From Stictocephala bisonia (Eukaryota; Arthropoda; Insecta; Hemiptera; Membracidae), in NCBI GenBank assembly GCA_035578905.1, contig JAQJVL010001209.1:155001-219000 (forward strand): a stretch of DNA of 64,000 nucleotides, given 5' to 3'. Shown here in pieces: positions 7,312-29,945 of this stretch (position 1 is the first letter of the stretch; the number at the start of each line of letters is the position of its first letter). A model generated the notes under the pieces. It saw only the letters and a list, made by a program, of their open reading frames with translations, was not told the origin of the DNA and ran no database searches. A program made the translations under genes and the position numbers.

Positions 7312-8059
7312 CATTCAATAGTGCACTAAGAGTAGTTAGTTCTCCATTTTCCAAGCATGTGGAAGGGCCAGTGCCTTGTCATTCAACAGTGCACTTAGAG
7401 TAGTTAGTTCTCCATTTTCCAAGCATGTGGAAGGGCCAGTGCCTTGTCATTCAACAGTGCACTTAGAGTAGTTAGTTCTCCCTTTTCCAAGCATGTGGAA
7501 GGGCCAGTGCCTTGTCATTCAACAGTGCACTGAGAGTAGTTAGTTCTCCATTTTCCAAGCATGTGGAAGGGCCAGTGCCTTGTCATTCAACAGTGCACTT
7601 AGAGTAGTTAGTTCTCCATTTTCCAAGCATGTGGAAGGGCCAGTGCCTTGTCATTCAACAGTGCACTTAGAGTAGTTAGTTCTCCATTTTCCAAGCATGT
7701 GGAAGGGCCAGTGCCTTGTCATTCAACAGTGCACTTAGAGTAGTTAGTTCTCCATTTTCCAAGCATGTGGAAGGGCCAGTGCCTTGTCATTCAACAGTGC
7801 ACTTAGAGTAGTTAGTTCTCCATTTTCCAAGCATGTGGAAGGGCCAGTGCCTTGTCATTCAACAGTGCACTTGGAGTAGTTAGTTCTCCATTTTCCAAGC
7901 ATGTGGAAGGGCCAGTGCCTTGTCATTCAACAGTGCACTTAGAGTAGTTAGTTCTCCATTTTCCAAGCATTTGGAAGGGCCAGTGCCTTGTCATTCAACA
8001 GTGCACTTAGAGTAGTTAGTTCTCCATTTTCCAAGCATGTGGAAGGGCCAGTGCCTTGT
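7312..8059. repeat. 68-bp tandem repeat, 11 copies
   Basis: The block is exactly 748 bp, eleven head-to-tail copies of a 68-bp unit starting cattcaacagtgcactta and ending gggccagtgccttgt. Copies differ by only a few point changes (for example the first copy, an a/c change near 7480 and g/t changes near 7970). The near-uniformity implies recent amplification or ongoing homogenisation. No coding function is suggested, since 68 is not a multiple of three. Confidence 0.97.
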
Positions 8060-10480
8060 CATTCACTTGTTTATTACCCGCAAATACCCGAGAATAAAAG
8101 TAGACATTATTACTTCAGATTTAAAAAGATGTAAATTAGTTGTAATCTGTTTATAACTAAATCTGTATAACAAGCAAGTAGCATATATTTATTTTTCTCT
8201 ATAGCTTCGTCTACCCCTATCCCCCGTGCTAAGAGCTAACATAGAACTAAGGTCTATATTATTTTTCCATCGCTAATATTTGAGCTCATAACAAGTAATC
8301 CTTTATTTTGATATCACTGGAGTACGTTATGCAATTTTAAGTATTTCACATGTAGGGGCAATAAAAAAAAAAACTAACGAACAGTTAAAGAACATTTTTG
8401 ATTTGCTGCTTCTAAAGAAAGAGTAAAGGCAGAAAAAACACTTTTTAAGTTTAATATCTGAACATCATATAAGAATGATATAGCATCTTAACAAATTCCA
8501 TGTTTTCAGTTAAGCAAAAAAGTGAAAATACCACTCTTTATGTATGGGTGGGTGGTTGGGTCAATACCATTGTACGTATGTGGGTGGGTCAATAGCACTG
8601 GGTGGGTGGGCCATTCCTACTGTACGTGTATGGGTGGTTGGGAGGGTATAACTGATAACTGTATATAAATCCTAGATCCAAGGTCAAAATGTTGTCAAAG
8701 GGTGATGTTTTTTTTCTTTTTTTCATTTAAACACTAAAACATTTACAGTTCATGGATTATTCTTGTAATTTGTGCCCAAAATTGATCCATAGATAAATAT
8801 TTTAAACTATGAGCTTGGTGTGAAAAGCTATATATTTCGAGCCAGTGAATGAGAGAGTTTAAGGTAAGAGTGTGTTATAATTTTATGTGTCGTTTCTGAA
8901 TTATACATGAATTATATGATTTTTTGGAAATTTTACAATTACAATGTTTACAGTTTTTCTTCAAAATATAAATAGCAATATAATATAATTATAAATTTAA
9001 AATATTGTTTTATATTCTATAGAATGATTATATCTATTTTGAAAAAAACATCCACTGTTCCTGTTACAGTAAAAAATGTATGAACACTGACAAGTTGAGA
9101 AAGGAACTTGTCTGTTAGCGCTGATACAGTAAAAGTACTTGTTAACTAATGACGAACACAAATAAATGTTCTATTGACGAATCAGTATAACATTTGAAAA
9201 TAAATGTAATAACCAAGCTTGAAATAAAAGTATTAAGCTAACGCTGGTTTAGCTTTTCAGAGGGGAACAATGATTTGAGGCCCTGCACAAGGGGGGAGGG
9301 GGTTAATGGCCCATTGTTATGAGTATAGCCATTCTTTGTTTATCCAATATGTGCTCTCTCTGGCATTATGAATTTCCTTTCTCACAAAACAAAATGTAAC
9401 CATAAAATTACATAATAACACAATATAATAACTGTTATGCTTTAAGATATAAATTATTTTTACTAAAAAAATTTTTATTTGTTTTTCTACAAAAAAATAT
9501 GTACAATATTTCATTACAGCTCGTATATACTCACCACATAATAGGTTTTAATTGAGTTTTATGTTAATACTTTTATAATTTTATAAAGTAAAGCTTGATT
9601 TATCTTCAATAAATTACGAGTCCAAGGTGGATCATTAAGTTCATTAAGGACAGGGATTTTTAACAGTTTTAGTTCACCGATGATAGTCAAACAATGGAAA
9701 AGACTGAATCAAAATAATAACGATCTACGTATTTTAGTAACTTGTTCATAAATTTTAAGATAAGGTCTTGAGATATTCTTATATCTGGTCAATGAATATT
9801 TATAATAAATTACTTGTGAAATGTGGAAGTATTAATGGGTAGTATTTTTATAAAACAAACAATTAAACATAGTCGTGTTGAATCAAAAGCTTTTTCAAAC
9901 ATAATCTATCGTCTCTTAACTTAGGTTAGGTTACATTAGGTCCATATGAGTTACATAACCTGATAACTACTTAACAATAAGTAATATCACAACAATTATT
10001 TATTGTTCGGATTGAACTATTGTATTGTTTACTTCAATTATCCTATTAACTTTCAACTGTCTTAAAAACTGGTTGTATATATATAGTTAAACCTGTTATA
10101 CATAGTTAACTGATTAATGTATTTTAATTTAAGGTCGTTTATATTTATTTAAATTTTACGTATATTTCATGCAGTTAGTGCACCTTAAAAAAATTTGGCG
10201 TGATAAGAAGCAGAGTTCCTACTTAATTAATTTTTTCTTGTAAAAATACGAGATCATTTTCATTAAATTATGTCCAATCTTTTAATAAACGTATTTTAAG
10301 CCGATTGCATGATTGTTCTATAAACAAAAATACTCTAGTACCATATTTTTTACTTGGTTATGATTTATTTATACATATTTAACTTGCATACATGAATTAA
10401 TTAAATAGGCAATCGTATTCCCGTGTTTAGTTAAATTTTACAAAATGTTTGTGCCACGGATATGTAAGGGGCTATAACAG
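8060..10480. other. AT-rich spacer around a minisatellite locus
   Basis: Apart from the 36-bp minisatellite at 8541-8648 nothing is recognised. A G-rich ggggggaggggg run occurs near 9290 and short ttaggttagg motifs near 9920. Confidence 0.5.
8541..8648 (-). repeat. 36-bp minisatellite family, locus 1 (degenerate)
   Basis: About three degenerate units of a G-rich motif (tgggtgggtcaata...gtacgtgtat). On the minus strand this is the same tgaccca-cccgccc-accc-atacacgtac unit seen at 10901, 15479, 41487 and 44108. Confidence 0.7.
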
Positions 10481-10525
10481 TCCTAAGCTATTCCACTTGC
10501 ATGAAAAAAGTGGAATAGCTTAGGA
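10481..10525. repeat. 18-bp perfect hairpin
   Basis: tcctaagctattccactt (10481-10498) is perfectly complementary to 10508-10525, with a 9-nt loop gcatgaaaa. The stem is too short for a normal animal pre-miRNA. It could be the relic of a foldback MITE. Confidence 0.7.
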
Positions 10526-10900
10526 AACATAGTTTATAAGGTTAGATTAGATTCTGGTTATGATAAGTTAGGATAAGCTATGTAAGGTTAGGTTAGGATG
10601 TACTATAGGACACATATTTTAAAACAATATTCAGAGCCATCGACGGAGTAAGTCTTCATAAATATTAGTTTTAAAACGGACTTTAAAAGTTCCCAGTAAT
10701 TTTCATCAAGATGCGTTCTAACAACAGATCAAGTAAACGTCACACAACACAAATGTATTACAATATAAGCACAAAATGCACAAATATATTACAATCAAGT
10801 ACAAAATGCACGAATATTATGGTGATCGATTTCAGTGAACCACACTCACCTTCCTCAGACCAGAGGGATTCACAAAAGCTTTTGATACACAATTAGCTAT

Positions 10901-11166
10901 TGACACACCCACCTATTCATACACGTACAGTGGTGTTAACCCACCCGTACACGTACAGTAGTGTTAACCTACCCGCCCACTCATACACGTACAGTGGTGT
11001 TAACCCACCCGCCCACCCGTACACGTACAGTGGTGTTAACCCACCCGCACACTCATACACTTACAGTAGTGTTAACCCACCCGCCCACTCATACACGTAC
11101 AGTGGTGTTAACCCACCTGCCCACCCATACACGTAGAGTGGTGTTAACCCACCCGTACACGTACAG
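10901..11166 (+). repeat. 36-bp minisatellite family, locus 2
   Basis: Roughly seven units of a 36-bp C-rich motif, tggtgttaacccacccgccc followed by acccgtacacgtacag, including shortened units. Because 36 is divisible by three, several frames stay open across the array and give histidine/threonine/proline-rich products, which are not evidence of a gene. Confidence 0.92.
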
Positions 11167-11519
11167 ACGTGCATGGTTTACTTGTTTAAATTTACATATA
11201 GATGATTATTCATACATTCATATTCAATATACTCTCATATGTGCATTTAGGTTACTTAACATTGGAAATGAGTGATAATATCAGTATGAACCTTAAAAAT
11301 AATATGGTATGTCTTCGAAGCTCGTGGAAATTAAAAAATAAATTCTTTTTTTTTGATTTTCAACCAAACAGAAAACTAAATTAAATATTTGATAATTCAT
11401 TAATAAAATTAAGTTTCAAATACTTAAGTAACTATTCTAAATCAGTTATCGTATAAAGTTTATGTGGCAGTAAAATACGTAAGTAATTATCAATTAAAAA
11501 AGAGATATTTTACTGTTTT
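11167..11519. other. AT-rich spacer
   Basis: No feature recognised. Confidence 0.5.
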
Positions 11520-11869
11520 GAAGAGGTCTTAAATAGAACGCTTACAGCACTTGACTCCAAGTCCCCTCCTCCCCTCTTCTACTCATGGGTGAGAAAGGTT
11601 CCGCTTTGTTTTCAAAACGCTTTCAGCAAGGTAAGGGGCGCGTATCATATTGCACAGGACTGGCGGACAATATTGCTGTTTATATTGCAGCCTGCACAGT
11701 CCACCCCAGCTCTCACACACACGCCCTTGTAACAATATTGCGTTCCCTCGACTTAAAGATACGTCGAGCTCTCTTCAATTTCAAGTACACTTGCTTTGCG
11801 TGGACAGGAACATTTTGTACCAGGAATGTACAGATTCCAAACAGTTTAAGACAATAATATTTAAAGATA
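11520..11869. promoter_or_regulatory. GC-richer conserved-looking patch
   Basis: A block of mixed composition in AT-rich surroundings, with no tandem repeats. It contains two SoxB-like acaatattg sites (about 11667 and 11730) and an agctctcttcaattt segment. Open frames of about 90 codons overlap in two frames without any recognisable domain. The appearance resembles a conserved non-coding element, but conservation cannot be tested here. Confidence 0.25.
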
Positions 11870-13100
11870 CTTTCTATAGTGCATTTCAAAAGATATTGCT
11901 ACATCAATACATACTTTTTAACCTTATTTAATAAGTTAAACACTATATATTATAAAAGAATATTATGAAATAAAAAATTTATTTTACTATGTTTTGCTAA
12001 ACCTTTACTCATATCTAATATAATACTCTGCTTAAAAATATTACAGTAAATTTATAAAAAATAAGTTATATTTATCTTTAGAAATCCTATTTATAGAAGT
12101 AACAGTTAAACTGAGGAAGATAGTGTAAACTATTAAAATTTAAACCCAGTTTACTACAATAGTAATAAGCCACAATTATAAAATTATGATAAAAAATACG
12201 TAAATATTAAGTACATTTTTTAGAAATTTTACGCTAAAAAAGTAAATACACAATTAAACTTCCAAAACACTCAAGGTTAGAGTAGTTTTTGAATGTCTTA
12301 AATTTGTTTAGTTTTCAATTAATTTAAGTCAGGTGTGTAATAAAAAACTACACGTCTGTTCATTTTTGCTTTTATCCTATTTCGTAGGTTTACATTTAAA
12401 TTTCTCGCCAACCACATGCGAAAACTCAAAAATACACATTGGCCCATAGAATATTTCAATGTTGTATTGTTCAAAAGTACTTTTCAGTCAGATTTCCTGC
12501 CTCCTAAAATATCCTAAAAATATGCATTTACTGGGAAATATTTGCATTTTTTCGATTGAAAATACATCTTCCTAGAGATGATAAAAGTAAATAAGTGGTT
12601 GTAATTTTAATTTAAAATTTTCATTATTTGCAGATTGTTAAGAAATTCATACTGTTAAAATGGTGATGAAGGCATAATACTCATAACCATATTATTCTAT
12701 ATAAATATTGTGTAAAACAAAATTAATTTCGCTGTGTGGGCCAACTCTGAATACCGATCTAACTGTGGACTGAGAATTTGAAGATCAGTAGTTACAAATT
12801 ATATATATTTTGATAACGTAATATAAACATCTCCATTACAATCTAAACTTATCAAATCATACAATTTATCAAAGGGAATATTTCAAGTTCTTGTAGCACA
12901 ATCCACATGTACACGTATTTGTAAAAATATGGCATGAAACTCATATGCCTGTAAATTGTAGATTATGATTTAAGACCATCCAATATAAAATCATGTGAAT
13001 TCAATTTACATGCCTGATGCACATTTGACCATGAGTGTTAAACATTAAATGCATGCTCTAAATTGCGAATCAAGCACATATATAGGGTTAATTAGTATAG
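11870..13100. other. AT-rich spacer
   Basis: Extremely AT-rich; no exon or repeat boundary supported. Confidence 0.5.
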
Positions 13101-13104
13101 TACG

Positions 13105-13640
13105 TTAGTCCTTCAGTGTTAGAAAGTTAGATGTGGGACTGACAGTTCGCGTGTACTCTGACAGCTGCAGGAAGAACAACAATGCATAGAACCACCGCCT
13201 GCTCACAATTAGGGAACCAGCTGTTTGGGCTGTTTCATGTTCGCCGGTCTCCCTTTATAATTCGTTAATGGCCTCCGTAATTAGGTGGTATTTAAAACCC
13301 TCTCGGTGGACTTATTCTCAAATTACCGTTAGCTTCTAGTCTTTGTGAAACGCAGTTCCTCTCTGAAATTGTTAAGGAAAGGAAGTGCCAATTCTTTAAT
13401 CGATTCTATCGTAGATATCTCGAGGAGTCCTTGTACTTCCTACCCTACTCGACGCCAATGGTCCATCTAGGGTTCTCCATCTATTTCTCAACAGGAGGCC
13501 TGTAGACTTTCAAAACCAATAAGCAACACTCGACTGGTTCTTTTGGAATGTTTTATAAGGACGTGGTTATGTGGTTTCTTTGAAGGGTCGCTGCCGACAT
13601 CCATCCCTCAACAGCTTTATTGTGCAATTATCTTTTGAGG
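13105..13640. promoter_or_regulatory. conserved-looking patch with homeodomain-type sites
   Basis: About 500 bp of balanced composition without internal repeats or long open frames. It carries closely spaced homeodomain-like cores (cgttaatggcc, cgtaattagg, tttataattc) around 13255-13290. Such sharp composition islands in insect deserts are often developmental enhancers; this is inference only. Confidence 0.3.
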
Positions 13641-13649
13641 CTTACCTAA

Positions 13650-14165
13650 TTTTATTGTTTTTTACTTTTTTTATTTCACTTTTAGAATTGTAGTATGAAA
13701 ACAATATGACTATAAATATTACACTACAATTTGAGACCATCTTACTGTTGTAATTTTTAAGCTAAACAACGGCTGGTGTACTGTACATTATAACAAAAAT
13801 TTACATGATTTAGCTACATAATTGAATTCTTTTAACTTTATGTAGACCAAAAAGATTCCTTAAATGGTACATTTTTACGTCCTTTTGCTCAGTTAATTAC
13901 TATATACCCTTCAAAGTATCAAGTACGGTTTAGAAAAAGTATAAAATGTAATATACTATTTGAATTTGAAGAATACGTCTCCGAACTAGTTAACAAAAGT
14001 ATTAAATATTACTTTAAGCATGAACCATCGAAAATAAGGTTTTTTTATTTTTAATAACGTACAAATTGACATACTCTTTATGGCAATATTCACACCCAAT
14101 ATAACATTCAAGCGAATATAAGTAAGTAGGAACAAAGTGTTGTTTATATTTTGAACTGTTGATTG
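13650..14165. other. AT-rich spacer
   Basis: Nothing recognised. Confidence 0.5.
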
Positions 14166-14169
14166 TCGG

Positions 14170-14430
14170 ACAAAAGTGCAAAGGGTCAGACTAGACATGG
14201 GAGGGGGTGTTTGCAGGTCTACGTGTTTGCTGTAGCCTCACAGACGGCTTTCTGCGAACAAACCGACTGACCGCGATGTCGCCGAGCTGTTTGATCCCTG
14301 GACAAACACAAACACCCCAGTAGTGTCCACATTCCATCGTCACTTACCTCTGTCGCTGATGTTTGATGTTTGTCTTACCCTGTGAGCCATCCCGTCGTGT
14401 CAAATAACCAGAGTTTGTTTTCCTCACAAA
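14170..14430. promoter_or_regulatory. GC-richer patch with forkhead-like sites
   Basis: A balanced-composition island with repeated tgtttg/caaaca motifs in both orientations (for example gtgtttgc near 14208 and acaaacacaaacacc near 14304), resembling forkhead-factor sites. No coding potential is seen. It could be an enhancer. Confidence 0.25.
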
Positions 14431-14579
14431 CTTTCCTAAGAGTCTCAACTAACGGACAGAGGTGGATTTATCGTAGATAAATAGTGTGTGGAGTTCTAAA
14501 TTCCAATTGAAGCTGATCTATATAAAACAAGAGTTAAAGATATTTTTATTTTTCCGAGGCGAAGTTAGGAATAAGAAGC

Positions 14580-14648
14580 CCTCTCTAACACTTAACCTGG
14601 GGATCAACGGCTTAAGGGTAACTTCCGAACCACCACCAGTGACCGGGT
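14580..14648 (-). repeat. 5S-related dispersed repeat, left half
   Basis: This GC-balanced segment (cttaacctggggatcaacgg...cttccgaacc) directly abuts the left end of the MULE. Its presumed continuation is the 5S-like segment on the other side of the MULE (30346-30470). The split is inferred from position and from the 8-bp target duplication, not from an alignment to an intact copy. Confidence 0.4.
14641..14648. repeat. MULE target-site duplication, left
   Basis: gaccgggt directly precedes the left TIR and is repeated at 30338-30345. The next outward base differs (t against g), so a 9-bp duplication with one mismatch, typical of MULEs, is likely. Confidence 0.75.
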
Positions 14649-14776
14649 GATTACGTGCCATCTCGTCCCGGTGCCATTTGGTCCCGCAACAAATTTCCTT
14701 GAAAAACGTGCTATCTCGTCCCGCTCGGGTTTACAGATTATTACATAAGCTAATGAGTAGCATCTCGTCCCAACGA
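14649..14776 (+). repeat. MULE left terminal inverted repeat region
   Basis: Three copies of a (g)tgc(c/t)atctcgtccc motif lie at about 14655, 14708 and 14758. The first is the inverted counterpart of the right end at 30302-30332. Repetition of the motif inside both termini suggests transposase-binding sites. Confidence 0.75.
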
Positions 14777-15216
14777 CATTTTGACAAGGGTTGAGGGAGT
14801 GCAGGTAGTCGTAGGCCAAGTACCAGTCGCTGTGTTATTTGACTCCCCTGCTGGTAACCCCTTTCACCCCCCCCTCTACGTTCGTTTATGTACATTGGAC
14901 AGACACTTTATTTGTTCGAGTGATATCCACGAGTTAAGGTCTTTGTTAATTATGGAGTTTTCAACTACTATAAGGGGCAAACCCAGTTTAATACTTAACG
15001 GATATACCTATTAAGAAGGAGAAGAAGTTCGGTGAAGTTGTGTGGCGTTGTGTTAATCGTTCGTATGAAGGAATAGTAATAACTAAAAATCGTGATTTTA
15101 TTAGAGAAGAGACTCATAATACGTGTGTTCCTGATGTGGCTGCTCAAGAAGTCCACAAGGCTATGGCACAGAGAAAGAAGAGAGCCCGGGAAGAAACTGA
15201 AAAATCCATTTCACAG

Positions 15217-15879
15217 GTTGGTTTATATTTTTATTAGTATGCTGAGTTAAAGTAAGAATGAATTTAGTATATTTTTTTAAGTTGTATTTTATTAGACTAG
15301 CTGGATACCCGTCCTCCGAACGGATAAATAATACATGAGGGGTTTCTGAATGTATGATAATAAATGTCACTTTACTAAAGTTTCCAATTTTATTAATATC
15401 AAGTGTATTTTTATTTTATACAAATTTTAATTTCTCAGTTAATAACTGTTCAATCTTAAAACTTTTTATTTGTCAGCGCAATGGTACTGACCCAACCACC
15501 CACCCATACAGACATGGTGGTACTGACCCACCCGCCCACCCATAGAGGCACAATGGTACTGACCCACCCGCCCACCCATAGAGGCACAATGGTACTGACC
15601 CACCCGCCCACCCACAGAGGCACAATGGTACTGACCCACCCGCCCACCCATAGAGGCACAATGGTACTTATTATTATTAATACAATGGTACACATGTCAA
15701 ATTGATTAACAAAATTGTATAGAAAGATAATCAAGTTTATATGCAACTATAGGCCTCATCTTAATGTATAAAATCTGTATACACCAATCAAGGAATATCA
15801 ATAACAATAAAGGACCGTAGGGGTGGAGTACCAAGGTGACTTTTGAAAGTTTAATTAGCCTAAAGCCTTGTTGTTTCAG
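15217..15879 (+). other. intron of the MULE transposase gene
   Basis: Bounded by tcacag|gttggt and ttgtttcag|attttt. The flanking exons read through in the order expected for FLYWCH-MULE proteins. At 15290-15345 it contains a short segment like the start of an old retroposon (actagctggatacccgtcct), and at 15479-15668 a minisatellite, so the intron has itself collected repeats. Confidence 0.6.
15479..15668 (+). repeat. 36-bp minisatellite family, locus 3
   Basis: About five 36-bp units, tggtactgacccacccgccc followed by acccatagaggcacaa, differing mainly in the last third from the units at other loci. The array stays open in frames on both strands because the unit is 12 codons long. It lies inside the MULE intron. 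Confidence 0.95.
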
Positions 15880-16265
15880 ATTTTTGGCGAAGAATTCAAT
15901 CCTCTTCTGCAATCCGGATTTGAACTAGTCACCAAAATTGCTCAATTATACAACTGCAAGTCTACTCTGCACAGACAGCGAAGGGATGCTCAGGGAGTTC
16001 AGGCTGAATCCAAAAATCGAGATGACGTTGAGCTGGACTCAGAAACTTTGAAGATGTCAGATGGAACTAATTTCCTGCTGGCTGACGACTTTGTGGTGAG
16101 CGCATACTTATATTTTCCAGTCCACAGGAAAAACTGCATGGAAAAAACACAAAATGTTTTTCATAGATGCCACCTTCAAGAGTGTAAGCATACAATTTTC
16201 GCAGTTGTACACCATCCATGTAGATTTAGGAAGCACTGTGGAGGAAACGAACGTAACCCCCGTAG

Positions 16266-16271
16266 TATTCG
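16266..16271. repeat. foldback target-site duplication, left
   Basis: tattcg sits immediately left of the foldback element and recurs at 29224-29229. Removing the element plus one copy rejoins the MULE frame from V-V-F to A-L-L-H-D-K, which confirms the boundaries independently of the sequence match. Confidence 0.9.
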
Positions 16272-16319
16272 AGTAGTGAAATAGGGAGAGAGCCAGACTC
16301 ACTTTGACCTTTGGACTTT

Positions 16320-16890
16320 CAAGATGGCGGCCGGAACCGGATCCAAGATGGCGGCGCCCATTTCCCGCCAAATTTCCTAACCTCACTTTTCCTAACCTCA
16401 AATTCCCGCCAAATTTTCTAACCTCACTTTTCCTAACCTCAAATTCCCACCAAATTTCCTAACCTCAAATTTCCTCCAAATTCCCAAATTTCCCTCCAAA
16501 TTCCCACATCATACTATATGAAATTCACTGTTAACCTTGTTATACTATATAAAATTCATTTAACTTTTTCCGTGTTATACTATATAAAATGCACTGTTAA
16601 CCTTGTTATACTATATAAGATACACTATATAAAATACAGTCTTAACCTAACTTTTTCCATGTTATACTATATAAAATTCACTTTTTTTTGTCCAATATGG
16701 CGTCTTTTTCCATATTATACTATATAAAATGCACTTTTTTGTCCAATATGGCGTCTTTTTCCATGTTATACTATATAAAATGCACTTTTTTGTCCAATAT
16801 GACGTCTTTTTCCATGTTAGACTATATAAAATGAACTTTTTTGTCCAATATGACGTCTTTCCCTCTTCAAAATTCCCTCCCAAAATTCCT
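16320..16890 (+). repeat. terminal arrays: aacctca repeats and 51-bp TATA repeats
   Basis: From 16370 to 16510 short units of aattcccgccaaatttccta / acctcacttttcct alternate. From 16515 to 16865 units of about 51 bp contain tttttccatgttatac, tatataaaatgcac and ttttttgtccaatatggcg. Perfect TATA-box-like tatataaaa occurs about ten times, and gccat-type (YY1/Pho-like) cores recur in the ccaatatggcg segments. The mirror image is at about 28565-29135. Confidence 0.88.
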
Positions 16891-16894
16891 AATC

Positions 16895-17260
16895 CAATAT
16901 GGCGACCTTTCCCTTCGGGTACTTCCGGCGACCGTCAGCTACCTTCGTACACGTCGTCTGCTGGTCGAGCGCGCATGCACCCCTTGTTACTCTACTCTAT
17001 GTGCTCGATCCGATCGTAGCGCACCTGGTGGCAAAACTTAGCGCATCCTTTCGGAACATGGCACCTTCGGAAGGGAAGTCCCCGGTGGTAATTCCCCTTC
17101 TCAAATTCGGTCTTTATACTATATAAAATACACTATTAACCTTTCTCATACTATATAAAATGCTAAAGATGGCGGTCATTTACATATGTACTATATAAAA
17201 TGCTTTCGTGTACTTCCGGCAACCGTCGGCTACCTTCGTACACGTCGTCTGCTGGTCTGA
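16895..17260 (+). repeat. GC-rich zone with a duplicated 47-bp segment
   Basis: A segment beginning acttccggcgaccgtcagct and ending gtctgctggtc (16920-16966) recurs with few changes at 17213-17257. Between them is CpG-containing sequence unlike the rest of the window, including cgcgcatgcacc and gcgcacctggtggc. It may be captured host promoter-type DNA. No gene could be named. Confidence 0.7.
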
Positions 17261-17703
17261 CGCACACCCAAATGCCACGCTCTGATTGGTTACCTCCCTA
17301 CTTTACAAGTAATCTTTCTCACACGTACTGTTAGACTACTTATTTAATTTAATTTTTTCTCAACTTTTTAATAAATACACTGTTAATATACGCTCTTACC
17401 TTCGGACACTCATCCATGGCTTCCTACACTGTTACCTATACTTATCTATCGAATCACAGATCATCCTCAAGCCCCTACTTAACACTCTAGGCAACCTGCA
17501 ATACACGTTTTAATTAAAAATCAAGGGACAGCTATTATTTATATTAATTATTTACTTCTTTTTTTATTTTTATTTAATTGTTACATACGAGACCAACTGG
17601 TGTACGGTGACCGGGCTTTATCGCTGTTATCACATCACTTGACCTCAAAGGTCAACCCGTGGCTGTTATCACATCCCACAAGCATTGTTTTACATCCCGT
17701 ATG

Positions 17704-17845
17704 AACGATGTACGAGTCTTTGTTACTAACTAGATGAACGAGTGTAGTCTTTGTTACTAACTAAGGCTGCTGGACCCTTTGATATATGATCTATTAACAA
17801 CACAGTAGTCAGGGAAACTATGACATGGAACCCAAACCCCTTAAA
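17704..17845 (-). mobile_element. SINE relic inside left arm
   Basis: Carries the gatgaacgagtgtagt / gttactaactaagg body and a ggtttgggttccatg box B-like head of the SINE family found at 5943 and 59036. The tail half is duplicated here (gtctttgttactaactaga repeated). A mirror copy lies at about 27615-27756 in the right arm, so the SINE was present before the arms were duplicated or was copied between them. Confidence 0.6.
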
Positions 17846-18249
17846 ATTTAGTTAAAATGTCCATAAATAGGGTTATTTGTGTACAAAATATGTTATAATT
17901 CCCTAAAAGCAATAAAATGCAGTGTCATAACAACGATATTTGTCCTAAACATTAAAAATTCCTTTAAAATACTCTTATAGAACCCCAGTTTGAGCTCAAA
18001 ACAACGTACAAAACTGATGTAACACTTGTAAATTAATTGTTTAAACCTACATAGCTATTTAGTTGACTCCAAACAGTTGGCAAAGTGTAAGTAGCCAATA
18101 GGAATAAATTCTCTATAATGTTCACATTTTAAGCTTGATTTTAACAAAACCTGATGCTATTGATTCTTTGCACATTAAACAAATAAACGAATAGTTAGTT
18201 GAAATGTGTCTATTGTAGAAACTTTGGTATTAACAGTAAGAAAGTTTGG

Positions 18250-19530
18250 TTTCTTTTGACTATAATATACTCGATCAGAAAATGTATATACACCACTCCC
18301 AAAGACCGAAACACATGGAGAACCTAGAACACACAACATTCTTGATAGATCACCTTCCTATTCATCACATAAGACCCTTGATTATCCATCACCTATCCCT
18401 AAGACATCTGACTGACCAACTACCCACCCAATATTCTAGACTAAACACACTCTACATACAAGACCTTTGATTGACCATCTACCTACCCTACACACACAGT
18501 ACTCTCGATAGACCACTCACCTCCCCATCACATAAGACATCTGACTAACCATCTACCCACCTAATATACTAGACTAACCACACTCTACACATAGTCCTCT
18601 TGACAGACCACACACCCCTCTCGACACATAATACATTTGACCACCTACCCACCTAATATACTAGACTAACCACACTCTACATACAAGACTTTTGATTGAC
18701 CATCTACCCACTCAACACACACAGACCCTCGATAGGCCACCCACCTCCCCAACACATAAGACATCTGACTGACCATCTACCCACCTAATATACTAGACTA
18801 ACCACACCTTACATACAAGACCTTTGATTGACCATCTACCTACCCAACAAACACAGTACCCTCGATAGGCCACACACCTTCCCAACACATAACACATCCG
18901 ACTGACCATCTACCCACCTAATATACTAGACTAAACACACCTTAAATACAAGACCTTTGATTGACCACCTACCTACCCCAACACACACAGTACCCTCGAT
19001 AGGCCACCCACCTTCCCAACACATAAGACATCTGACTGACCACCTACCTACTTAATAAACTAGACTAACCACACTCTACATACAAGACTTTTGATTGACC
19101 ACTCACCTACTAAACACACAGACGTTTGATTAAACACCCACATACTCAACACAGAGTCATGTTGATAGACCAACCCACCTTCCCCAAACATAAAACCTTT
19201 GATAGACCAACCACACACTCTACAGACATAACTTAAAATACCATCACACTACCAAAAAGGCAGTCTCTTTATAGACCCCCATCTACTCAATACATGAGAC
19301 ACTTGGTTAACCACTCGCCTACCCAACACATAGTCCTCTTGATAGACCACTCACCCCTCCCGACACATAATACATTTGACAGACCACTTACTTAACATAC
19401 AAGACTGACCATACACTCTACATCGAAGACGTTTGATTATCCACTCACCTACTCAATACATACAAAACACTTGTTTGATCACAACAATTTAACAAACACA
19501 ACTGACGATTGACATTCCACATTCCCAAAG
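18250..19530 (+). repeat. degenerate ~130-bp tandem array
   Basis: Repeating phrases ctgactgaccatctaccc, cctaatatactagactaa, cacactctacatacaaga and cctttgattgaccatcta recur about every 130 bp with much divergence and many gaps. This is an older array than the adjoining 192-bp one. The mirror image is at about 25930-27200. Confidence 0.85.
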
Positions 19531-19544
19531 CATCATACTACAAT

Positions 19545-22090
19545 GAAAATAGTCCTATTGACATACCCCTACCTACCAAACATACGTACCACACAACATA
19601 AAATCATGACAACAGTCCACCCACCTACTCAACACACAACACCTCTGATAGATAATCCACCTAAAAATTACATAAAACCTTACAGTGACACCCAAAATTC
19701 ATGGATAACCTACCTACCAAACATACGAATTGACCACATTACCAAAGCATATGAAGAACCACCTACCAAACATACGTACCACACACCATAAAATCATGAC
19801 TTAACAGTCCACCCACCTACTCAACACACAACACCTCTGATAGATAATCCTCCTAAACATTACATAAAACCTTACAGTGACACCCAAAATTCATGGATAA
19901 CCTACCTACCAAACATACGAATTGACCACATTACCAAAGCATATGAAGGACCACCTACCAAACATACGTACCACACACCATAAAAATCATGACTTAACAG
20001 TCCACCCACCTACTCAACACACAACACCTCTGATAGATAATCCACCTAAACATTACATAAAACCTTACATTGACACCCAAAATTCATGGATAACCTACCT
20101 ACCAAACATACGAATTGACCACATTACCAAAGCATATGAAGGACCACCTACCAAACATACGTACCACACACCATAAAATCATGACTTAACAGTCCACCCA
20201 CCTACTCAACGCACAACACCTCTGATAGATAATCCTCCTAAACATTACATAAAACCTTACATTGACACCCAACATTCATGGATAACCTACCTACCAAACA
20301 TACGAATAGACCACATTACCAAAGCATATGAAGGACCAATCACAAACATACGTACCACACACCATAAAATCATGACTTAACAGTCCACCCACCTACTCAA
20401 CACACAACACCTCTGATAGATAATCCACCTAACCACTACATAAAACCTATGATTGACACTCAACATTCATGGATGACCACCTACCATACATACGTACACC
20501 ATAAAACCACGACTTAACAGTCCACACACCTACTCAAAACACAACACCTCTGATAGATAATCCACCTAAACATTACATAAAAACCTTACATTGACACCCA
20601 ACATTCATGGATGACCTACCTACCATACATACGTACACCATAAAACCATGACTTAACAGTCCACACACCTACTCAAAACACAACACCTCTGATAGATAAT
20701 CCACCTAACCACTACATAAAACCTATGATTGACACTCAACATTCATGGATGACCACCTACCATACATACGTACACCATAAAACCATGACTTACAGTCCAC
20801 ACGCCTACTCAAAACACAACACCTCTGATAGATAATCCACCTAACCACTACATAAAACCTATGATTGACACTCAACATTCATGGATGACCACCAACCATA
20901 TATACGTACCACACACCATAAAACCATGACTTAACAGTCCACACGCTACTCAAAACACAACACCTCTGATAGATAATCCACCTAACCACTACATAAAACC
21001 TATGATTGACACTCAACATTCATGGATGACCACCTACCATACATACGTACACCATAAAACCATGACTTAACAGTCCACACGCCTACTCAAAACACAACAC
21101 CCTCTGATAGATAATCCACCTAACCACTACATACAACCTATGATTGACACTCAACATTCATGGATGACCACCTAACCATACATACGTACACCATAAAACC
21201 ATGACTTAACAGTCCACTCAAACATACTCAAAACACAACACCTCTGATAGATAATCCACCTAAACACTACATAAAACCTATGATTGACACTCAAGATTCA
21301 TGGATGACCACCTAACCATACATACGTACACCATAAAACCATGACTTAACAGTCCACTCAAACATACTCAAAACACAACACCTCTGATAGATAATCCACC
21401 TAACCACTACATAAAACCTATGATTGACACTCAACATTCATGGATGACCACCAACCATACATACGTACACCATAAAACCATGACTTAACAGTCCACACGC
21501 CTACTCAAAACACAACACCTCTGATAGATAATCCACCTAACCACTACATAAAACCTTTGATTGATACTCAACATTCATGGATGACCTACCTACCAAACAT
21601 ACGAATTGACCACATTACCAAAGCATATGAAGGACCACCTACCATACATACGTACCACACACCATAAAATCATGACTTAACAGTCCACCCGCCACCTCAA
21701 CACACAACACCTCTGATAGATAATCCACCTAACCACTACTTAAAACCTTTGATTGACACTCAACATTCATGGATGACCTACCTACCAAACATACGAATTG
21801 ACCACATTCTCAAAGCATAAGAAGGACCACCTACCACACATACATACCACACACCATAAAATCATAACTTAACAGTCCACCCGCCTACTCAAAACACAAC
21901 ACCTCTGATAGATAATCCACCTAAACATTACATAAAACCTTACATTGACACCCAACATTCATGGATGACCTACCTACCAAACATACGAATTGACTACATT
22001 ACCAAAGCATATGAAGGACCACCTACCATACATACGTACCACACACCATAAAATCATGACTTAACAGTCCACCCGCCTACCTCTGCACAC
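19545..22090 (+). repeat. 192-bp / ~140-bp tandem array
   Basis: Units of about 192 bp (cagtccacccacctactc..., aacacctctgatagataatc..., gaattgaccacattacc...) run from 19600. From about 20500 a shorter ~140-bp form lacking the gaattgaccacattaccaaa segment dominates, and the long form returns after 21580. The switch between long and short units points to unequal exchange or deletion within the array. The mirror image is at about 23375-25915. Confidence 0.92.
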
Positions 22091-22366
22091 ACAATTCCTT
22101 ATGACACACCCTAAACATACCACTCATCCTACAGACAAAACTCCTAGAGAACTACCCATCCACCATAAAAACAGTATTGCTTCATTTAATCATGTTTTAA
22201 AATAACATTATTACACTGTAAGATAGGTTTAATACAGCTAAAGACCTAAAGTGTTACCTAAAATTCTGTTTTATATGAGAGCCGTTGGTGGAAAACATCC
22301 AAACTAAACATAGAAAATAGGAATCAGCTAGTAGTTTCATAGAAATTCTGCTATACAACTAAAAAA

Positions 22367-22660
22367 ATATGAGAAAAAATTAGGTTTAAAAACAATGAAC
22401 ACAGAAAAAATTAGGTTTAAAAACAATGAACACAGAAAAAATTAGGTTTAAAAACAATGAACACAGAAAAAATTAGGTTTAAAAACAATGAACACAGAAA
22501 AAATTAGGTTTAAAAACAATGAGAACAGAAAAAATTAGATTAAAAAAATGAACATAGAAAAAGTTAGGTTAAAAAAATGAACACAGAAAAAGTTAGGTTA
22601 AAAAAAGAACACAGAAAAAGTTAGGTTAAAAAAAAATAAACATAGAAAAAGTTAGGTTAG
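22367..22660 (+). repeat. 31-bp tandem array next to spacer
   Basis: Five near-perfect copies of a 31-bp unit (cagaaaaaattaggttta, aaaacaatgaaca) are followed by progressively shorter variants (aaaaagttaggttaaaaaaa). Mirrored at about 22805-23100. Confidence 0.92.
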
Positions 22661-22676
22661 CAAACATCAGAAAAGT

Positions 22677-22790
22677 TCAGTTAAAATTAACAAAACTCAT
22701 AAAATGGGACATTTTTTGACTTTTGTTAATTTTAACAACTTTTCGGAAAAGTGAGGATAGCAATCAACCTTTCGGTTGTTTGCTAGACTT
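22677..22790. other. 114-bp foldback spacer
   Basis: The only central sequence not shared by the arms. It contains its own hairpin (gttaaaattaacaaaa pairing with ttttgttaattttaac) and a second small stem (caacctttcggttg). In single-stranded form the whole 13 kb could fold with this as the loop. Confidence 0.85.
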
Positions 22791-25700
22791 ACTTTTCTGA
22801 TGTTTGCTAACCTAACTTTTTCTATGTTTATTTTTTTTTAACCTAACTTTTTCTGTGTTCTTTTTTTAACCTAACTTTTTCTGTGTTCATTTTTTTAACC
22901 TAACTTTTTCTATGTTCATTTTTTTAATCTAATTTTTTCTGTTCTCATTGTTTTTAAACCTAATTTTTTCTGTGTTCATTGTTTTTAAACCTAATTTTTT
23001 CTGTGTTCATTGTTTTTAAACCTAATTTTTTCTGTGTTCATTGTTTTTAAACCTAATTTTTTCTGTGTTCATTGTTTTTAAACCTAATTTTTTCTCATAT
23101 TTTTTTAGTTGTATAGCAGAATTTCTATGAAACTACTAGCTGATTCCTATTTTCTATGTTTAGTTTGGATGTTTTCCACCAACGGCTCTCATATAAAACA
23201 GAATTTTAGGTAACACTTTAGGTCTTTAGCTGTATTAAACCTATCTTACAGTGTAATAATGTTATTTTAAAACATGATTAAATGAAGCAATACTGTTTTT
23301 ATGGTGGATGGGTAGTTCTCTAGGAGTTTTGTCTGTAGGATGAGTGGTATGTTTAGGGTGTGTCATAAGGAATTGTGTGTGCAGAGGTAGGCGGGTGGAC
23401 TGTTAAGTCATGATTTTATGGTGTGTGGTACGTATGTATGGTAGGTGGTCCTTCATATGCTTTGGTAATGTAGTCAATTCGTATGTTTGGTAGGTAGGTC
23501 ATCCATGAATGTTGGGTGTCAATGTAAGGTTTTATGTAATGTTTAGGTGGATTATCTATCAGAGGTGTTGTGTTTTGAGTAGGCGGGTGGACTGTTAAGT
23601 TATGATTTTATGGTGTGTGGTATGTATGTGTGGTAGGTGGTCCTTCTTATGCTTTGAGAATGTGGTCAATTCGTATGTTTGGTAGGTAGGTCATCCATGA
23701 ATGTTGAGTGTCAATCAAAGGTTTTAAGTAGTGGTTAGGTGGATTATCTATCAGAGGTGTTGTGTGTTGAGGTGGCGGGTGGACTGTTAAGTCATGATTT
23801 TATGGTGTGTGGTACGTATGTATGGTAGGTGGTCCTTCATATGCTTTGGTAATGTGGTCAATTCGTATGTTTGGTAGGTAGGTCATCCATGAATGTTGAG
23901 TATCAATCAAAGGTTTTATGTAGTGGTTAGGTGGATTATCTATCAGAGGTGTTGTGTTTTGAGTAGGCGTGTGGACTGTTAAGTCATGGTTTTATGGTGT
24001 ACGTATGTATGGTTGGTGGTCATCCATGAATGTTGAGTGTCAATCATAGGTTTTATGTAGTGGTTAGGTGGATTATCTATCAGAGGTGTTGTGTTTTGAG
24101 TATGTTTGAGTGGACTGTTAAGTCATGGTTTTATGGTGTACGTATGTATGGTTAGGTGGTCATCCATGAATCTTGAGTGTCAATCATAGGTTTTATGTAG
24201 TGTTTAGGTGGATTATCTATCAGAGGTGTTGTGTTTTGAGTATGTTTGAGTGGACTGTTAAGTCATGGTTTTATGGTGTACGTATGTATGGTTAGGTGGT
24301 CATCCATGAATGTTGAGTGTCAATCATAGGTTTTATGTAGTGGTTAGGTGGATTATCTATCAGAGGTGTTGTGTTTTGAGTAGGCGTGTGGACTGTTAAG
24401 TCATGGTTTTATGGTGTACGTATGTATGGTTGGTGGTCATCCATGAATGTTGAGTGTCAATCATAGGTTTTATGTAGTGGTTAGGTGGATTATCTATCAG
24501 AGGTGTTGTGTTTTGAGTAGGCGTGTGGACTGTTAAGTCATGGTTTTATGGTGTACGTATGTATGGTTGGTGGTCATCCATGAATGTTGAGTGTCAATCA
24601 TAGGTTTTATGTAGTGGTTAGGTGGATTATCTATCAGAGGTGTTGTGTTTTGAGTAGGCGTGTGGACTGTAAGTCATGGTTTTATGGTGTACGTATGTAT
24701 GGTAGGTGGTCATCCATGAATGTTGAGTGTCAATCATAGGTTTTATGTAGTGGTTAGGTGGATTATCTATCAGAGGTGTTGTGTTTTGAGTAGGTGTGTG
24801 GACTGTTAAGTCATGGTTTTATGGTGTACGTATGTATGGTAGGTAGGTCATCCATGAATGTTGGGTGTCAATGTAAGGTTTTATGTAATGTTTAGGTGGA
24901 TTATCTATCAGAGGTGTTGTGTTTTGAGTAGGTGTGTGGACTGTTAAGTCGTGGTTTTATGGTGTACGTATGTATGGTAGGTGGTCATCCATGAATGTTG
25001 AGTGTCAATCATAGGTTTTATGTAGTGGTTAGGTGGATTATCTATCAGAGGTGTTGTGTGTTGAGTAGGTGGGTGGACTGTTAAGTCATGATTTTATGGT
25101 GTGTGGTACGTATGTTTGTGATTGGTCCTTCATATGCTTTGGTAATGTGGTCTATTCGTATGTTTGGTAGGTAGGTTATCCATGAATGTTGGGTGTCAAT
25201 GTAAGGTTTTATGTAATGTTTAGGAGGATTATCTATCAGAGGTGTTGTGCGTTGAGTAGGTGGGTGGACTGTTAAGTCATGATTTTATGGTGTGTGGTAC
25301 GTATGTTTGGTAGGTGGTCCTTCATATGCTTTGGTAATGTGGTCAATTCGTATGTTTGGTAGGTAGGTTATCCATGAATTTTGGGTGTCAATGTAAGGTT
25401 TTATGTAATGTTTAGGTGGATTATCTATCAGAGGTGTTGTGTGTTGAGTAGGTGGGTGGACTGTTAAGTCATGATTTTATGGTGTGTGGTACGTATGTTT
25501 GGTAGGTGGTCCTTCATATGCTTTGGTAATGTGGTCAATTCGTATGTTTGGTAGGTAGGTTATCCATGAATTTTGGGTGTCACTGTAAGGTTTTATGTAA
25601 TGTTTAGGAGGATTATCTATCAGAGGTGTTGTGTGTTGAGTAGGTGGGTGGACTGTTAAGTCATGATTTTATGGTGTGTGGTACGTATGTTTGGTAGGTG

Positions 25701-28700
25701 GTTCTTCATATGCTTTGGTAATGTGGTCAATTCGTATGTTTGGTAGGTAGGTTATCCATGAATTTTGGGTGTCACTGTAAGGTTTTATGTAATTTTTAGG
25801 TGGATTATCTATCAGAGGTGTTGTGTGTTGAGTAGGTGGGTGGACTGTTGTCATGATTTTATGTTGTGTGGTACGTATGTTTGGTAGGTAGGGGTATGTC
25901 AATAGGACTATTTTCATTGTAGTATGATGCTTTGGGAATGTGGAATGTCAATCGTCAGTTGTGTTTGTTAAATTGTTGTGATCAAACAAGTGTTTTGTAT
26001 GTATTGAGTAGGTGAGTGGATAATCAAACGTCTTCGATGTAGAGTGTATGGTCAGTCTTGTATGTTAAGTAAGTGGTCTGTCAAATGTATTATGTGTCGG
26101 GAGGGGTGAGTGGTCTATCAAGAGGACTATGTGTTGGGTAGGCGAGTGGTTAACCAAGTGTCTCATGTATTGAGTAGATGGGGGTCTATAAAGAGACTGC
26201 CTTTTTGGTAGTGTGATGGTATTTTAAGTTATGTCTGTAGAGTGTGTGGTTGGTCTATCAAAGGTTTTATGTTTGGGGAAGGTGGGTTGGTCTATCAACA
26301 TGACTCTGTGTTGAGTATGTGGGTGTTTAATCAAACGTCTGTGTGTTTAGTAGGTGAGTGGTCAATCAAAAGTCTTGTATGTAGAGTGTGGTTAGTCTAG
26401 TTTATTAAGTAGGTAGGTGGTCAGTCAGATGTCTTATGTGTTGGGAAGGTGGGTGGCCTATCGAGGGTACTGTGTGTGTTGGGTAGGTAGGTGGTCAATC
26501 AAAGGTCTTGTATTTAAGGTGTGTTTAGTCTAGTATATTAGGTGGGTAGATGGTCAGTCGGATGTGTTATGTGTTGGGAAGGTGTGTGGCCTATCGAGGG
26601 TACTGTGTGTGTTGGGTAGGTAGATGGTCAATCAAAGGTCTTGTATGTAAGGTGTGGTTAGTCTAGTATATTAGGTGGGTAGATGGTCAGTCAGATGTCT
26701 TATGTGTTGGGGAGGTGGGTGGCCTATCGAGGGTCTGTGTGTGTTGAGTGGGTAGATGGTCAATCAAAAGTCTTGTATGTAGAGTGTGGTTAGTCTAGTA
26801 TATTAGGTGGGTAGGTGGTCAAATGTATTATGTGTCGAGAGGGGTGTGTGGTCTGTCAAGAGGACTATGTGTAGAGTGTGGTTAGTCTAGTATATTAGGT
26901 GGGTAGATGGTTAGTCAGATGTCTTATGTGATGGGGAGGTGAGTGGTCTATCGAGAGTACTGTGTGTGTAGGGTAGGTAGATGGTCAATCAAAGGTCTTG
27001 TATGTAGAGTGTGTTTAGTCTAGAATATTGGGTGGGTAGTTGGTCAGTCAGATGTCTTAGGGATAGGTGATGGATAATCAAGGGTCTTATGTGATGAATA
27101 GGAAGGTGATCTATCAAGAATGTTGTGTGTTCTAGGTTCTCCATGTGTTTCGGTCTTTGGGAGTGGTGTATATACATTTTCTGATCGAGTATATTATAGT
27201 CAAAAGAAACCAAACTTTCTTACTGTTAATACCAAAGTTTCTACAATAGACACATTTCAACTAACTATTCGTTTATTTGTTTAATGTGCAAAGAATCAAT
27301 AGCATCAGGTTTTGTTAAAATCAAGCTTAAAATGTGAACATTATAGAGAATTTATTCCTATTGGCTACTTACACTTTGCCAACTGTTTGGAGTCAACTAA
27401 ATAGCTATGTAGGTTAAACAATTAATTTACAAGTGTTACATCAGTTTTGTACGTTGTTTTGAGCTCAAACTGGGGTTCTATAAGAGTATTTTAAAGGAAT
27501 TTTTAATGTTTAGGACAAATATCGTTGTTATGACACTGCATTTTATTGCTTTTAGGGAATTATAACATATTTTGTACACAAATAACCCTATTTATGGACA
27601 TTTTAACTAAATTTTAAGGGGTTTGGGTTCCATGTCATAGTTTCCCTGACTACTGTGTTGTTAATAGATCATATATCAAAGGGTCCAGCAGCCTTAGTTA
27701 GTAACAAAGACTACACTCGTTCATCTAGTTAGTAACAAAGACTCGTACATCGTTCATACGGGATGTAAAACAATGCTTGTGGGATGTGATAACAGCCACG
27801 GGTTGACCTTTGAGGTCAAGTGATGTGATAACAGCGATAAAGCCCGGTCACCGTACACCAGTTGGTCTCGTATGTAACAATTAAATAAAAATAAAAAAAG
27901 AAGTAAATAATTAATATAAATAATAGCTGTCCCTTGATTTTTAATTAAAACGTGTATTGCAGGTTGCCTAGAGTGTTAAGTAGGGGCTTGAGGATGATCT
28001 GTGATTCGATAGATAAGTATAGGTAACAGTGTAGGAAGCCATGGATGAGTGTCCGAAGGTAAGAGCGTATATTAACAGTGTATTTATTAAAAAGTTGAGA
28101 AAAAATTAAATTAAATAAGTAGTCTAACAGTACGTGTGAGAAAGATTACTTGTAAAGTAGGGAGGTAACCAATCAGAGCGTGGCATTTGGGTGTGCGTCA
28201 GACCAGCAGACGACGTGTACGAAGGTAGCCGACGGTTGCCGGAAGTACACGAAAGCATTTTATATAGTACATATGTAAATGACCGCCATCTTTAGCATTT
28301 TATATAGTATGAGAAAGGTTAATAGTGTATTTTATATAGTATAAAGACCGAATTTGAGAAGGGGAATTACCACCGGGGACTTCCCTTCCGAAGGTGCCAT
28401 GTTCCGAAAGGATGCGCTAAGTTTTGCCACCAGGTGCGCTACGATCGGATCGAGCACATAGAGTAGAGTAACAAGGGGTGCATGCGCGCTCGACCAGCAG
28501 ACGACGTGTACGAAGGTAGCTGACGGTCGCCGGAAGTACCCGAAGGGAAAGGTCGCCATATTGGATTAGGAATTTTGGGAGGGAATTTTGAAGAGGGAAA
28601 GACGTCATATTGGACAAAAAAGTTCATTTTATATAGTCTAACATGGAAAAAGACGTCATATTGGACAAAAAAGTGCATTTTATATAGTATAACATGGAAA

Positions 28701-29184
28701 AAGACGCCATATTGGACAAAAAAGTGCATTTTATATAGGGAAAGACGCCATATTGGACAAAAAAAAGTGAATTTTATATAGTATAACATGGAAAAAGTTA
28801 GGTTAAGACTGTATTTTATATAGTGTATCTTATATAGTATAACAAGGTTAACAGTGCATTTTATATAGTATAACACGGAAAAAGTTAGGTTAACAATGAA
28901 TTTTATATAGTATAACAAGGTTAACAGTGAATTTCATATAGTATGATGTGGGAATTTGGAGGGAAATTTGGGAATTTGGCGGGAAATTTGAGGTTAGGAA
29001 ATTTGGTGGGAATTTGAGGTTAGGAAAAGTGAGGTTAGAAAATTTGGCGGGAATTTGAGGTTAGGAAAAGTGAGGTTAGGAAATTTGGCGGGAAATGGGC
29101 GCCGCCATCTTGGATCCGGTTCCGGCCGCCATCTTGAAAGTCCAAAGGTCAAAGTGAGTCTGGCTCTCTCCCTATTTCACTACT
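22791..29184 (-). repeat. foldback right arm (6394 bp)
   Basis: Inverted copy of the left arm with all internal arrays in mirrored order. The net length difference is 11 bp. One clear difference is a shortened spacer between two TATA repeats near 28739, where the right arm lacks about 10 bp present at 16709-16720. The very low divergence implies recent origin or continuing gene conversion between arms. Confidence 0.95.
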
Positions 29185-29223
29185 GGGTAAAAGTGAGCCT
29201 AAAACCATCAGTTTTTGTCTACT
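29185..29223. repeat. 39-bp right-end extension of the foldback
   Basis: Present only at the right end (gggtaaaagtg ... gtctact). Its outer end, read inverted, starts AGTAG like the left end, so it looks like an extra terminal module that the left end lacks. This places the true boundary at 29223, next to the target duplication. Confidence 0.8.
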
Positions 29224-29229
29224 TATTCG
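29224..29229. repeat. foldback target-site duplication, right
   Basis: tattcg, identical to 16266-16271. It is also the codon boundary at which the interrupted transposase frame resumes. Confidence 0.9.
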
Positions 29230-29945
29230 CATTACTTCATGACAAAAGAAAGGCAACTTATATTCGTCTCTTTAACGCCATTCTTCGGGTGATTCCAGAC
29301 TGTTCCACTGAGGCAGTGAACGCATATTTCGAAGCTGCAGTGATCGAAGCAATCAACAGTGTATTTCCTGTTGCAGAATTTCATGGTTGTTTTTTTTTTC
29401 ATTTCTCTCAGTGTCTTTGGAGGAAAGTACAAAATCTTGGGCTTGCCAACTATTACACCACGCGGCAGGAAATACGAGACTCCGTGAGAATGTTCGCTGC
29501 TCTGGCCTTTTAAAAATCGACAGATGTTGAGCAAGGCTGGCTACACGTCCACAGTGTTGCTGTAGGACATGAAAAGTTCAATGAGTTTTTTGACTATTTT
29601 GTTGGCCAGTGGTTAGAAAACCCTCATTTACCAATTGAAACATGGAATTGTACCGGCAGGCGACATCGTACCAACAATGCTGTGGAAGGATGGAACCATC
29701 GCTTGAATGGAATTGTTGGAAAACCACACCCTTGAATAAAAAATCTAATCATGACGTTAAACAAAGAAGCAGAATATACTGACAATAAAATAATCAGGAT
29801 TGACCTACATTTAGAAGGTTTGAAGATGAGAAAAAAGTATATTGTCATGGACAATAGACTTTAAAGAGCCACTGAAAATTTGAAGAAGACAGGTGAAATT
29901 AATAAGTTTTTGAGGAACGTCTCTTACATAGTAAAAATGGATTAA
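29230..29945 (+). pseudogene. MULE transposase, 3' part
   Basis: Continues the transposase after the insertion: A-L-L-H-D-K-R-K, then Y-F-E-A-A-V-I-E-A-I where family members usually carry a catalytic Asp before F-E. It goes on with F-H-G-C, an H-F-S-Q-C-L-W-R-K-V-Q segment and A-A-L-A-F, then a stop at 29511. After it the same frame continues through F-F-D-Y-F-V-G-Q-W-L-E-N-P and the diagnostic R-T-N-N-A-V-E-G-W-N-H, where E is the third catalytic acid, to a further stop near 29733. A run of nine T near 29390 lengthens a Phe tract. Several stops and the Asp-to-Tyr change show decay. Confidence 0.85.

Follow-up and report, generated by a model that had tools for sequence, protein, structure and literature searches.

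A gene-free palindromic foldback element of Stictocephala bisonia has the ends of gene-bearing Polintons in its genome

A 64,000-nucleotide stretch of the Stictocephala bisonia (Hemiptera, Membracidae) genome (assembly GCA_035578905.1, contig JAQJVL010001209.1, positions 155,001 to 219,000; hereafter the window, with positions counted from its first base) carries a gene-free palindromic element. The element belongs to a large foldback family, whose copying and insertion probably depend on proteins supplied in trans by the Polintons of this genome. We infer both transposition in trans, as read from the shared ends, and snapback copying. The insertion is 12,952 bp long and lies at 16272–29223 with exact borders, between two copies of the 6-bp target-site duplication TATTCG (16266–16271 and 29224–29229, both on the forward strand). 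Its two 6.4-kb arms are 99.8% identical (6,402 matches and 12 mismatches over 6,414 aligned bases, with 13 gaps, in a MAFFT alignment) and were placed by BLAST at element positions 1–6405 and 6520–12913, with a 114-bp loop between them. Joining the flanks at the empty site restores an open MULE-transposase frame (frame 2, with 50 codons read on the left), the right part of which matches the Pfam MULE family at E 8e-6 and 26.7 bits, slightly under the 27.6-bit cut-off. None of ten Polinton protein pieces matched the element, nor did any match the foldbacks C865, C437 and C8256 (handles of this kind designate the other copies), and a Pfam scan of ten arm open reading frames (ORFs) at E up to 1 gave matches at E 0.13–0.61 only, far below the cut-offs. 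An earlier sequence-only reading of the window had described a giant non-autonomous foldback with a Polinton end signature and no genes; that description is confirmed.

The outer 60 bp of the left arm are identical (60/60) to those of three gene-bearing Polintons, C2215, C269 and C4062, and differ by one mismatch from the left end of a fourth, C2643. All 27 ends compared start with AGTAG, as do nine of ten further ends; the tenth, the right end of C2251, does so after a one-base border shift. The sequence AAGATGGCGGC, a putative YY1-type site, has two or more starts in the first 113 bp of all 27 ends compared and is absent from the 51 kb of the window outside the element. The element has the 6-bp duplication and the AG...CT ends with short AGT repeats that characterize Polintons, and it has neither PolB and rve integrase genes nor a terminal inverted repeat (TIR) in their range of tens to about 1,500 bp, its arms being 6.4 kb long. 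It holds no genes, and its genome also contains a gene-bearing copy with its cis ends, as expected of a non-autonomous derivative. Because these ends are shared with gene-bearing Polintons of the same genome, the element is, as judged from its sequence, a non-autonomous palindromic Polinton derivative and not a class with its own machinery. The suggestion, made in the sequence-only reading, of an undescribed separate class is not supported, and the element falls into a known superfamily. A separate transposon class with merely Polinton-like ends would account for the observation that most of each arm is unmatched in the gene-bearing pieces, and for the lack of any match to the ten Polinton protein pieces in four foldbacks. 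It is very unlikely in view of the identical outer 60 bp in three gene-bearing Polintons, of the 99–100% identity over 300 bp in two other foldbacks (below) and of the same 6-bp duplications.

The 1.68-Gb assembly (11,105 contigs) was searched for further copies. Each DNA search covered the best 40 candidates, and all copy numbers are lower bounds. With the first 300 bp of the arm as query, 47 matches were obtained from the best 40 of 1,923 candidates, many of them as plus/minus pairs. Eighteen copies with two ends (the window element, C865, C2215, C437, C269, C8256, C2643, C4062, C3476, C119, C16, C1250, C3764, C3676, C375, C7042, C2251 and C6648) all have AGTAG...CTACT-type ends and perfect 6-bp duplications, and the 18 duplications are all different. 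The right-end borders of C2643 (one extra AGT), C119 and C2251 (one base) were set by eye, at the terminal AG. The search with the arm start that the sequence-only reading had proposed thus recovered both the same duplication length in every copy and gene-bearing elements with the AGTAG terminus. By content, nine of the 18 are foldbacks: the window element, C865, C437, C8256, C3476, C1250, C3676 and C7042 (these two classed by loop matches), and C2251 (by one arm marker). The remaining nine comprise five gene-bearing copies, the deletion derivative C119, and C3764, C375 and C6648, which were not typed by content. The loop is present once in each of five foldbacks found through their ends, at 98–100% identity. 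A 241-bp region around it occurs at 40 places at 97–100% identity (best 40 of 678 candidates), an arm marker gave 40 matches at 98–100%, 34 of which form 17 plus/minus pairs (best 40 of 2,710), and a C437-type marker gave 40 matches at 97–100% with 17 pairs (best 40 of 1,542). Judged by these identities, the foldbacks are a large recent family. The arrays of the arms were also considered as free satellite DNA, a candidate that was rejected: in 19 of 24 contigs, counted by eye among the matches listed, the foldback loop or arm marker is found there, and five were not resolved.

An assembly fold would produce arms as similar as the 99.8% seen here. The right arm of C8256 does look poorly polished: it carries many short insertions relative to the left, and 94 of 128 gaps are extra bases on the right. 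C8256 was set aside as evidence of age for this reason. The palindrome is nevertheless almost certainly not an assembly fold, because two different flanks share a duplication in 18 of 18 copies, the window's arms differ internally by 1–10 bp and its outer ends are asymmetric; the loop region, moreover, lies at at least 40 places. Long, internally repetitive arms and a MULE-type frame as insertion target could also point to an element of the Foldback/Galileo type, moved by a MULE or P transposase. Foldback duplications are 9 bp long. The duplications found here are 6 bp in 18 of 18 copies, not 7–9 bp, and the ends equal Polinton ends, which makes such an origin extremely improbable. The resemblance to Foldback/Galileo claimed in the sequence-only reading holds for architecture and for nothing beyond it.

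The gene-bearing copies measure 14,069 bp (C2215), 14,087 bp (C269), 14,061 bp (C2643), 13,816 bp (C4062) and 13,924 bp (C16, which holds the capsid gene). The first four were read through; their TIRs are about 820 bp long (431 bp in C4062), and all encode the same ORF set of PolB, rve/chromo integrase, ATPase and double-jelly-roll capsid protein, with PolB split in C269 and C4062 and the capsid gene split in C2215 and C2643. Three ORFs of C2215 and seven of C269 were scanned with Pfam, and the polymerase ORF of C2643 was used for a homolog search. The integrase ORF matched rve (4.5e-9) and chromo (3.4e-6), the A32-like ATPase was found at E 1e-3, below the cut-off, and the double-jelly-roll capsid protein at E 4.6e-107. 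Two further proteins gave a phospholipase-A2-like match (3e-12) and a phage tail-fibre-like match (3.2e-11); four of the ten ORFs scanned gave no family, and Pfam named no protease among them. In the 1,067-amino-acid polymerase ORF, PF03175 did not fire and only a weak Endonuclease_7 match was obtained, and this ORF is named PolB from the homologs of its 1,151-amino-acid counterpart in C2643. For that counterpart, 1,377 homologs were obtained with E values no higher than 0.001, arthropod and mollusc proteins among them; one is annotated 'PolB [Parasteatoda house spider adintovirus]' (46% identity), and the best named homolog is from Lycorma delicatula (52%). A search of solved structures with the capsid protein gave no match. 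By gene content, ends and duplications as read from the assembly, these copies are Polintons/Mavericks. Genome-wide, all 105 scored matches to the capsid gene (from 2,661 candidates) span 392–394 of its 394 residues at 91–100% identity, most of them without an internal stop. At least 105 full-length and mostly open double-jelly-roll capsid genes amount to a very large recent Polinton expansion. C119, 3.5 kb long, derives from a Polinton by deletion; it retains both TIRs, has a 6-bp duplication and keeps part of PolB (279 amino acids at 89%).

Homology to the gene-bearing Polintons extends inward from the ends and comes from one side. Arm positions 512–1032 (521 bp) match C119 on the PolB side of its TIR at 83%; together with a TIR-like outermost stretch, which includes the 60 bp shared with gene-bearing copies, they make up a Polinton-derived outer part of the left arm at 16272–17303 (forward strand). 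Arm positions 1337–1404 (17608–17675, forward strand) match the PolB-side subterminal region in all four gene-bearing copies read through, at 81–97% over 36–62 bp. The arms contain no capsid-side sequence of these four copies apart from a single match of 21 bp near the edge of the TIR, and the rest of each arm matches none of the Polinton pieces compared. Since PolB-side sequence is present and capsid-side sequence is absent beyond those 21 bp, both arms carry one and the same Polinton end, and they likely derive from a single parent end, as in a snapback genome. Another route to such an element, one without any snapback, is an internal deletion that kept both original Polinton TIRs, which later grew inward. 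C119 is a derivative of just this kind, and Galileo TIRs are described as growing by recruitment of internal sequence (PMC3573991). An internal-deletion origin is unlikely, however, given the one-sided homology of the arms and the single loop common to five of five foldbacks found through their ends.

The two arms of one element resemble each other more closely than they resemble the arms of other elements. The asymmetric loop served to orient 19 centres (five full foldbacks and 14 fetched by their loops), and the arms 5' (A) and 3' (B) of it were compared over their inner 900 bp. Within elements the arms diverge by a median of 0.11% and a mean of 0.93% (0.22% without C8256), and between elements by about 3.2%. 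With C8256 set aside, A–A divergence (3.23%) equals A–B divergence (3.25%), and the 5' and 3' arms therefore do not form separate lineages. For 32 of 38 inner arms, ties included, the arm's own partner was among the nearest rows. The number of units in the 192-bp array is the same in both arms of the window element (4.8/4.8), C865 (9.8/9.8) and C3476 (6.8/6.8), and for the other arrays detected in both arms of these three elements the counts differ by no more than 0.2 unit; the 51-bp array of the window element passed the filter in a single arm, and C8256 is not scored here. The closer match within than between elements suggests that one arm templates the other. The main rival to hairpin copying, which we regard as possible rather than probable, accepts the same Polinton derivative and has its arms kept equal by chromosomal gene conversion, or else by the cutting and repair of cruciforms. 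Conversion is open to any palindrome of 99% identity and would likewise make A and B arms group mostly by element, as they do. For whole array counts to be equal between the arms in three elements, it would need long tracts in each lineage.

The ends themselves vary in form. In the window element a strict (AGT)2 is present only at the left end, and the right end reads AGTAGA; C2643 carries (AGT)2 on one side and (AGT)3 on the opposite side. The right end of the window element is 39 bp longer than the left (AGTAGACAAAAACTG...TTTTACCC). These extra outer bases, at 29185–29223 on the reverse strand, represent a genuine alternative terminus, the long form, which reads AGTAGACAAAAACTG inward and is found at both ends of C3676 and C7042; the two ends of C375 carry a closely related form. 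Such a pairing of a short left with a long right terminus in one copy would fit initiation at alternative AGTAG repeats. Over their outer 300 bp, the foldbacks C437 and C8256 are 99–100% identical to the gene-bearing C2215, against 85–86% to the window element. The match of C437 to C2215 fades beyond about 300–350 bp; at 301–600 bp it has the same base as the window element at 292 of 300 aligned positions, and further inward the matched stretches are 86–96% alike. From these matches, ends have apparently been exchanged between foldbacks and Polintons.

A scheme that would accommodate these features begins with a snapback at the Polinton end that lies on the PolB side, in which two copies of that end would have been joined head to head around the present 114-bp loop. 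The inner arms would then have acquired foreign tandem arrays. Replication by the Polinton terminal protein and PolB would begin at the AGT repeats of the ends, and its product would be inserted by the Polinton integrase. In vertebrate Mavericks, end repeats are thought to permit jumping-back during protein-primed replication (PMC8097293). Hairpin folding of the displaced strand would let one arm template the other repeatedly, and arms and array counts would be kept equal. The ends would be refreshed by exchange with active Polintons.

The foldbacks whose two ends were measured are 12,952 bp (window), 13,164, 12,418 and 11,235 bp long, with a further 12,565 bp for C1250, 13,558 bp for C3676, 13,071 bp for C7042 and 12,954 bp for C2251; C3476 measures 11,811 bp once a nested element is subtracted. 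The right arm of C3476 (element positions 10516–20828) holds a 10,313-bp long terminal repeat (LTR) retrotransposon with 1,092-bp LTRs that are 100% identical, flanked by CATTTT, and the single match of a Polinton protein piece in C3476 sits inside this retrotransposon. Total lengths extrapolated from marker distances were dropped, as they were off by up to about 1 kb (C7042 and the left end of C5923). All nine foldbacks (11.2–13.6 kb) are shorter than all five gene-bearing copies (13.8–14.1 kb), a relation that invites the idea of packaging; nine lengths are no proof of it. Vertebrate Maverick lengths have been taken to imply a constrained genome size, and the same source presents Polintons as thought to be virus-like, with particles not observed (PMC8097293). 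Tentatively, the foldback may be an inherited satellite of a Polinton virus: it would parasitise that virus as a self-complementary hairpin genome packaged in the viral capsid, the arrays serving as stuffer near the length limit. Shorter copies are indicated by the closest C437-type marker pair among the matches listed, in C200, with markers 2.0 kb apart.

Several observations weigh against a snapback derivative that is copied and moved in trans. No expression, particle or replication intermediate was seen, and mobilisation in trans is read from the shared ends. The arms of C437 differ by ten 140-bp units (24.2 versus 14.2), and the inner arms of C1829 are 0.96% apart with 130 gap columns, with 62 gap columns in C7259, so that homogenisation is imperfect. 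In six of 38 inner arms the own partner was not among the nearest. Beyond 1 kb the PolB-side evidence consists of matches of 36–62 bp, the PolB-side stretch in the arm of C437 lies in the opposite orientation, and C119 is without its capsid side. The two-ended copies were chosen as the best matches with both ends, by which intact copies are over-represented and damaged ones under-represented, and 14 of the 19 centres were picked by a loop match, hence they are no test of loop universality.

Within the window element, the left arm (16272–22676, 6,405 bp, forward strand) begins with AGTAGTGAAATAG and contains, on the same strand, tandem arrays of 51-bp (16651–16860, 4.1 units), 133-bp (18638–19120, 3.6 units), 192-bp (19571–20494, 4.8 units), 137-bp (20359–21603, 9.0 units), again 192-bp (21446–22080, 3.2–3.3 units) and 31-bp repeats (22372–22658, 9.5 units). 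Arms built of nested tandem arrays, as the sequence-only reading had put it, are thus borne out. The asymmetric loop occupies 22677–22790 (no strand assigned), and the right arm follows at 22791–29184 on the reverse strand with the arrays mirrored; the five arrays detected in both arms have the same number of units in each. The 3' part of the interrupted MULE-type transposase frame lies at 29230–29510 on the forward strand, and its 5' part stops at 16271. Elsewhere in the window, dispersed 36-bp arrays of related, ACCCACCCGCCCACCCATA-like units were noted at 10920–11166, 15479–15668 and 41485–41651, and similar repeats lie in the flank of the foldback C25. A 103-bp satellite array (25.8 copies, 95% matches) lies at 47173–49830, and at 60354–60902 there is a 39-bp array (14.1 copies at 99%), on both strands of which several frames are open.

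Comparison of a gene-free passenger that has a high copy number and nothing but Polinton ends would show which cis sequences are enough for movement, and long and short termini in one copy are a natural record of end choice. The size series of the foldbacks could serve as a test for a packaging limit. A passenger that interfered with its helper would amount to a defective-interfering genome preserved in a germline.

A foldback or non-autonomous Polinton is not described in the titles and abstract starts of the open-licence literature searched. The element shares with Polintons/Mavericks (adintovirus-like) the 6-bp duplications, the (AGT)2//(ACT)2-type ends and, with those of its own genome, identical outer ends. 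Vertebrate Mavericks are reported to have (AGT)2//(ACT)2 or (AG)3//(CT)3 ends, 6-bp duplications and, in intact copies, TIRs of 46–1,447 bp (PMC8097293), whereas the foldbacks are gene-free and palindromic over the whole element, with inverted arms of about 5–7 kb. The Tlr elements of Tetrahymena were once suggested to be non-autonomous Polinton derivatives; the source that records this (PMC4028283) argues instead for an ancient sister lineage with its own capsid gene. The window element, unlike Tlr, is gene-free and has its ends in common with Polintons of the same genome. Snapback genomes of adeno-associated virus (AAV), which are defective interfering genomes (PMC8235507), are also self-complementary, derived from one viral end and helper-dependent. 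They are, however, virion DNA of a hairpin-replicating virus, while the foldbacks are integrated copies linked to a protein-primed element and carry tandem arrays. Drosophila Foldback and Galileo have similarly long, internally repetitive inverted arms with array copy-number variation, and differ in their transposases and, for Galileo, in 7-bp duplications and TIRs of about 0.3–1.2 kb (PMC3573991). The element would work like a snapback defective genome, looks like Foldback/Galileo, and belongs with the Polintons as a non-autonomous derivative.

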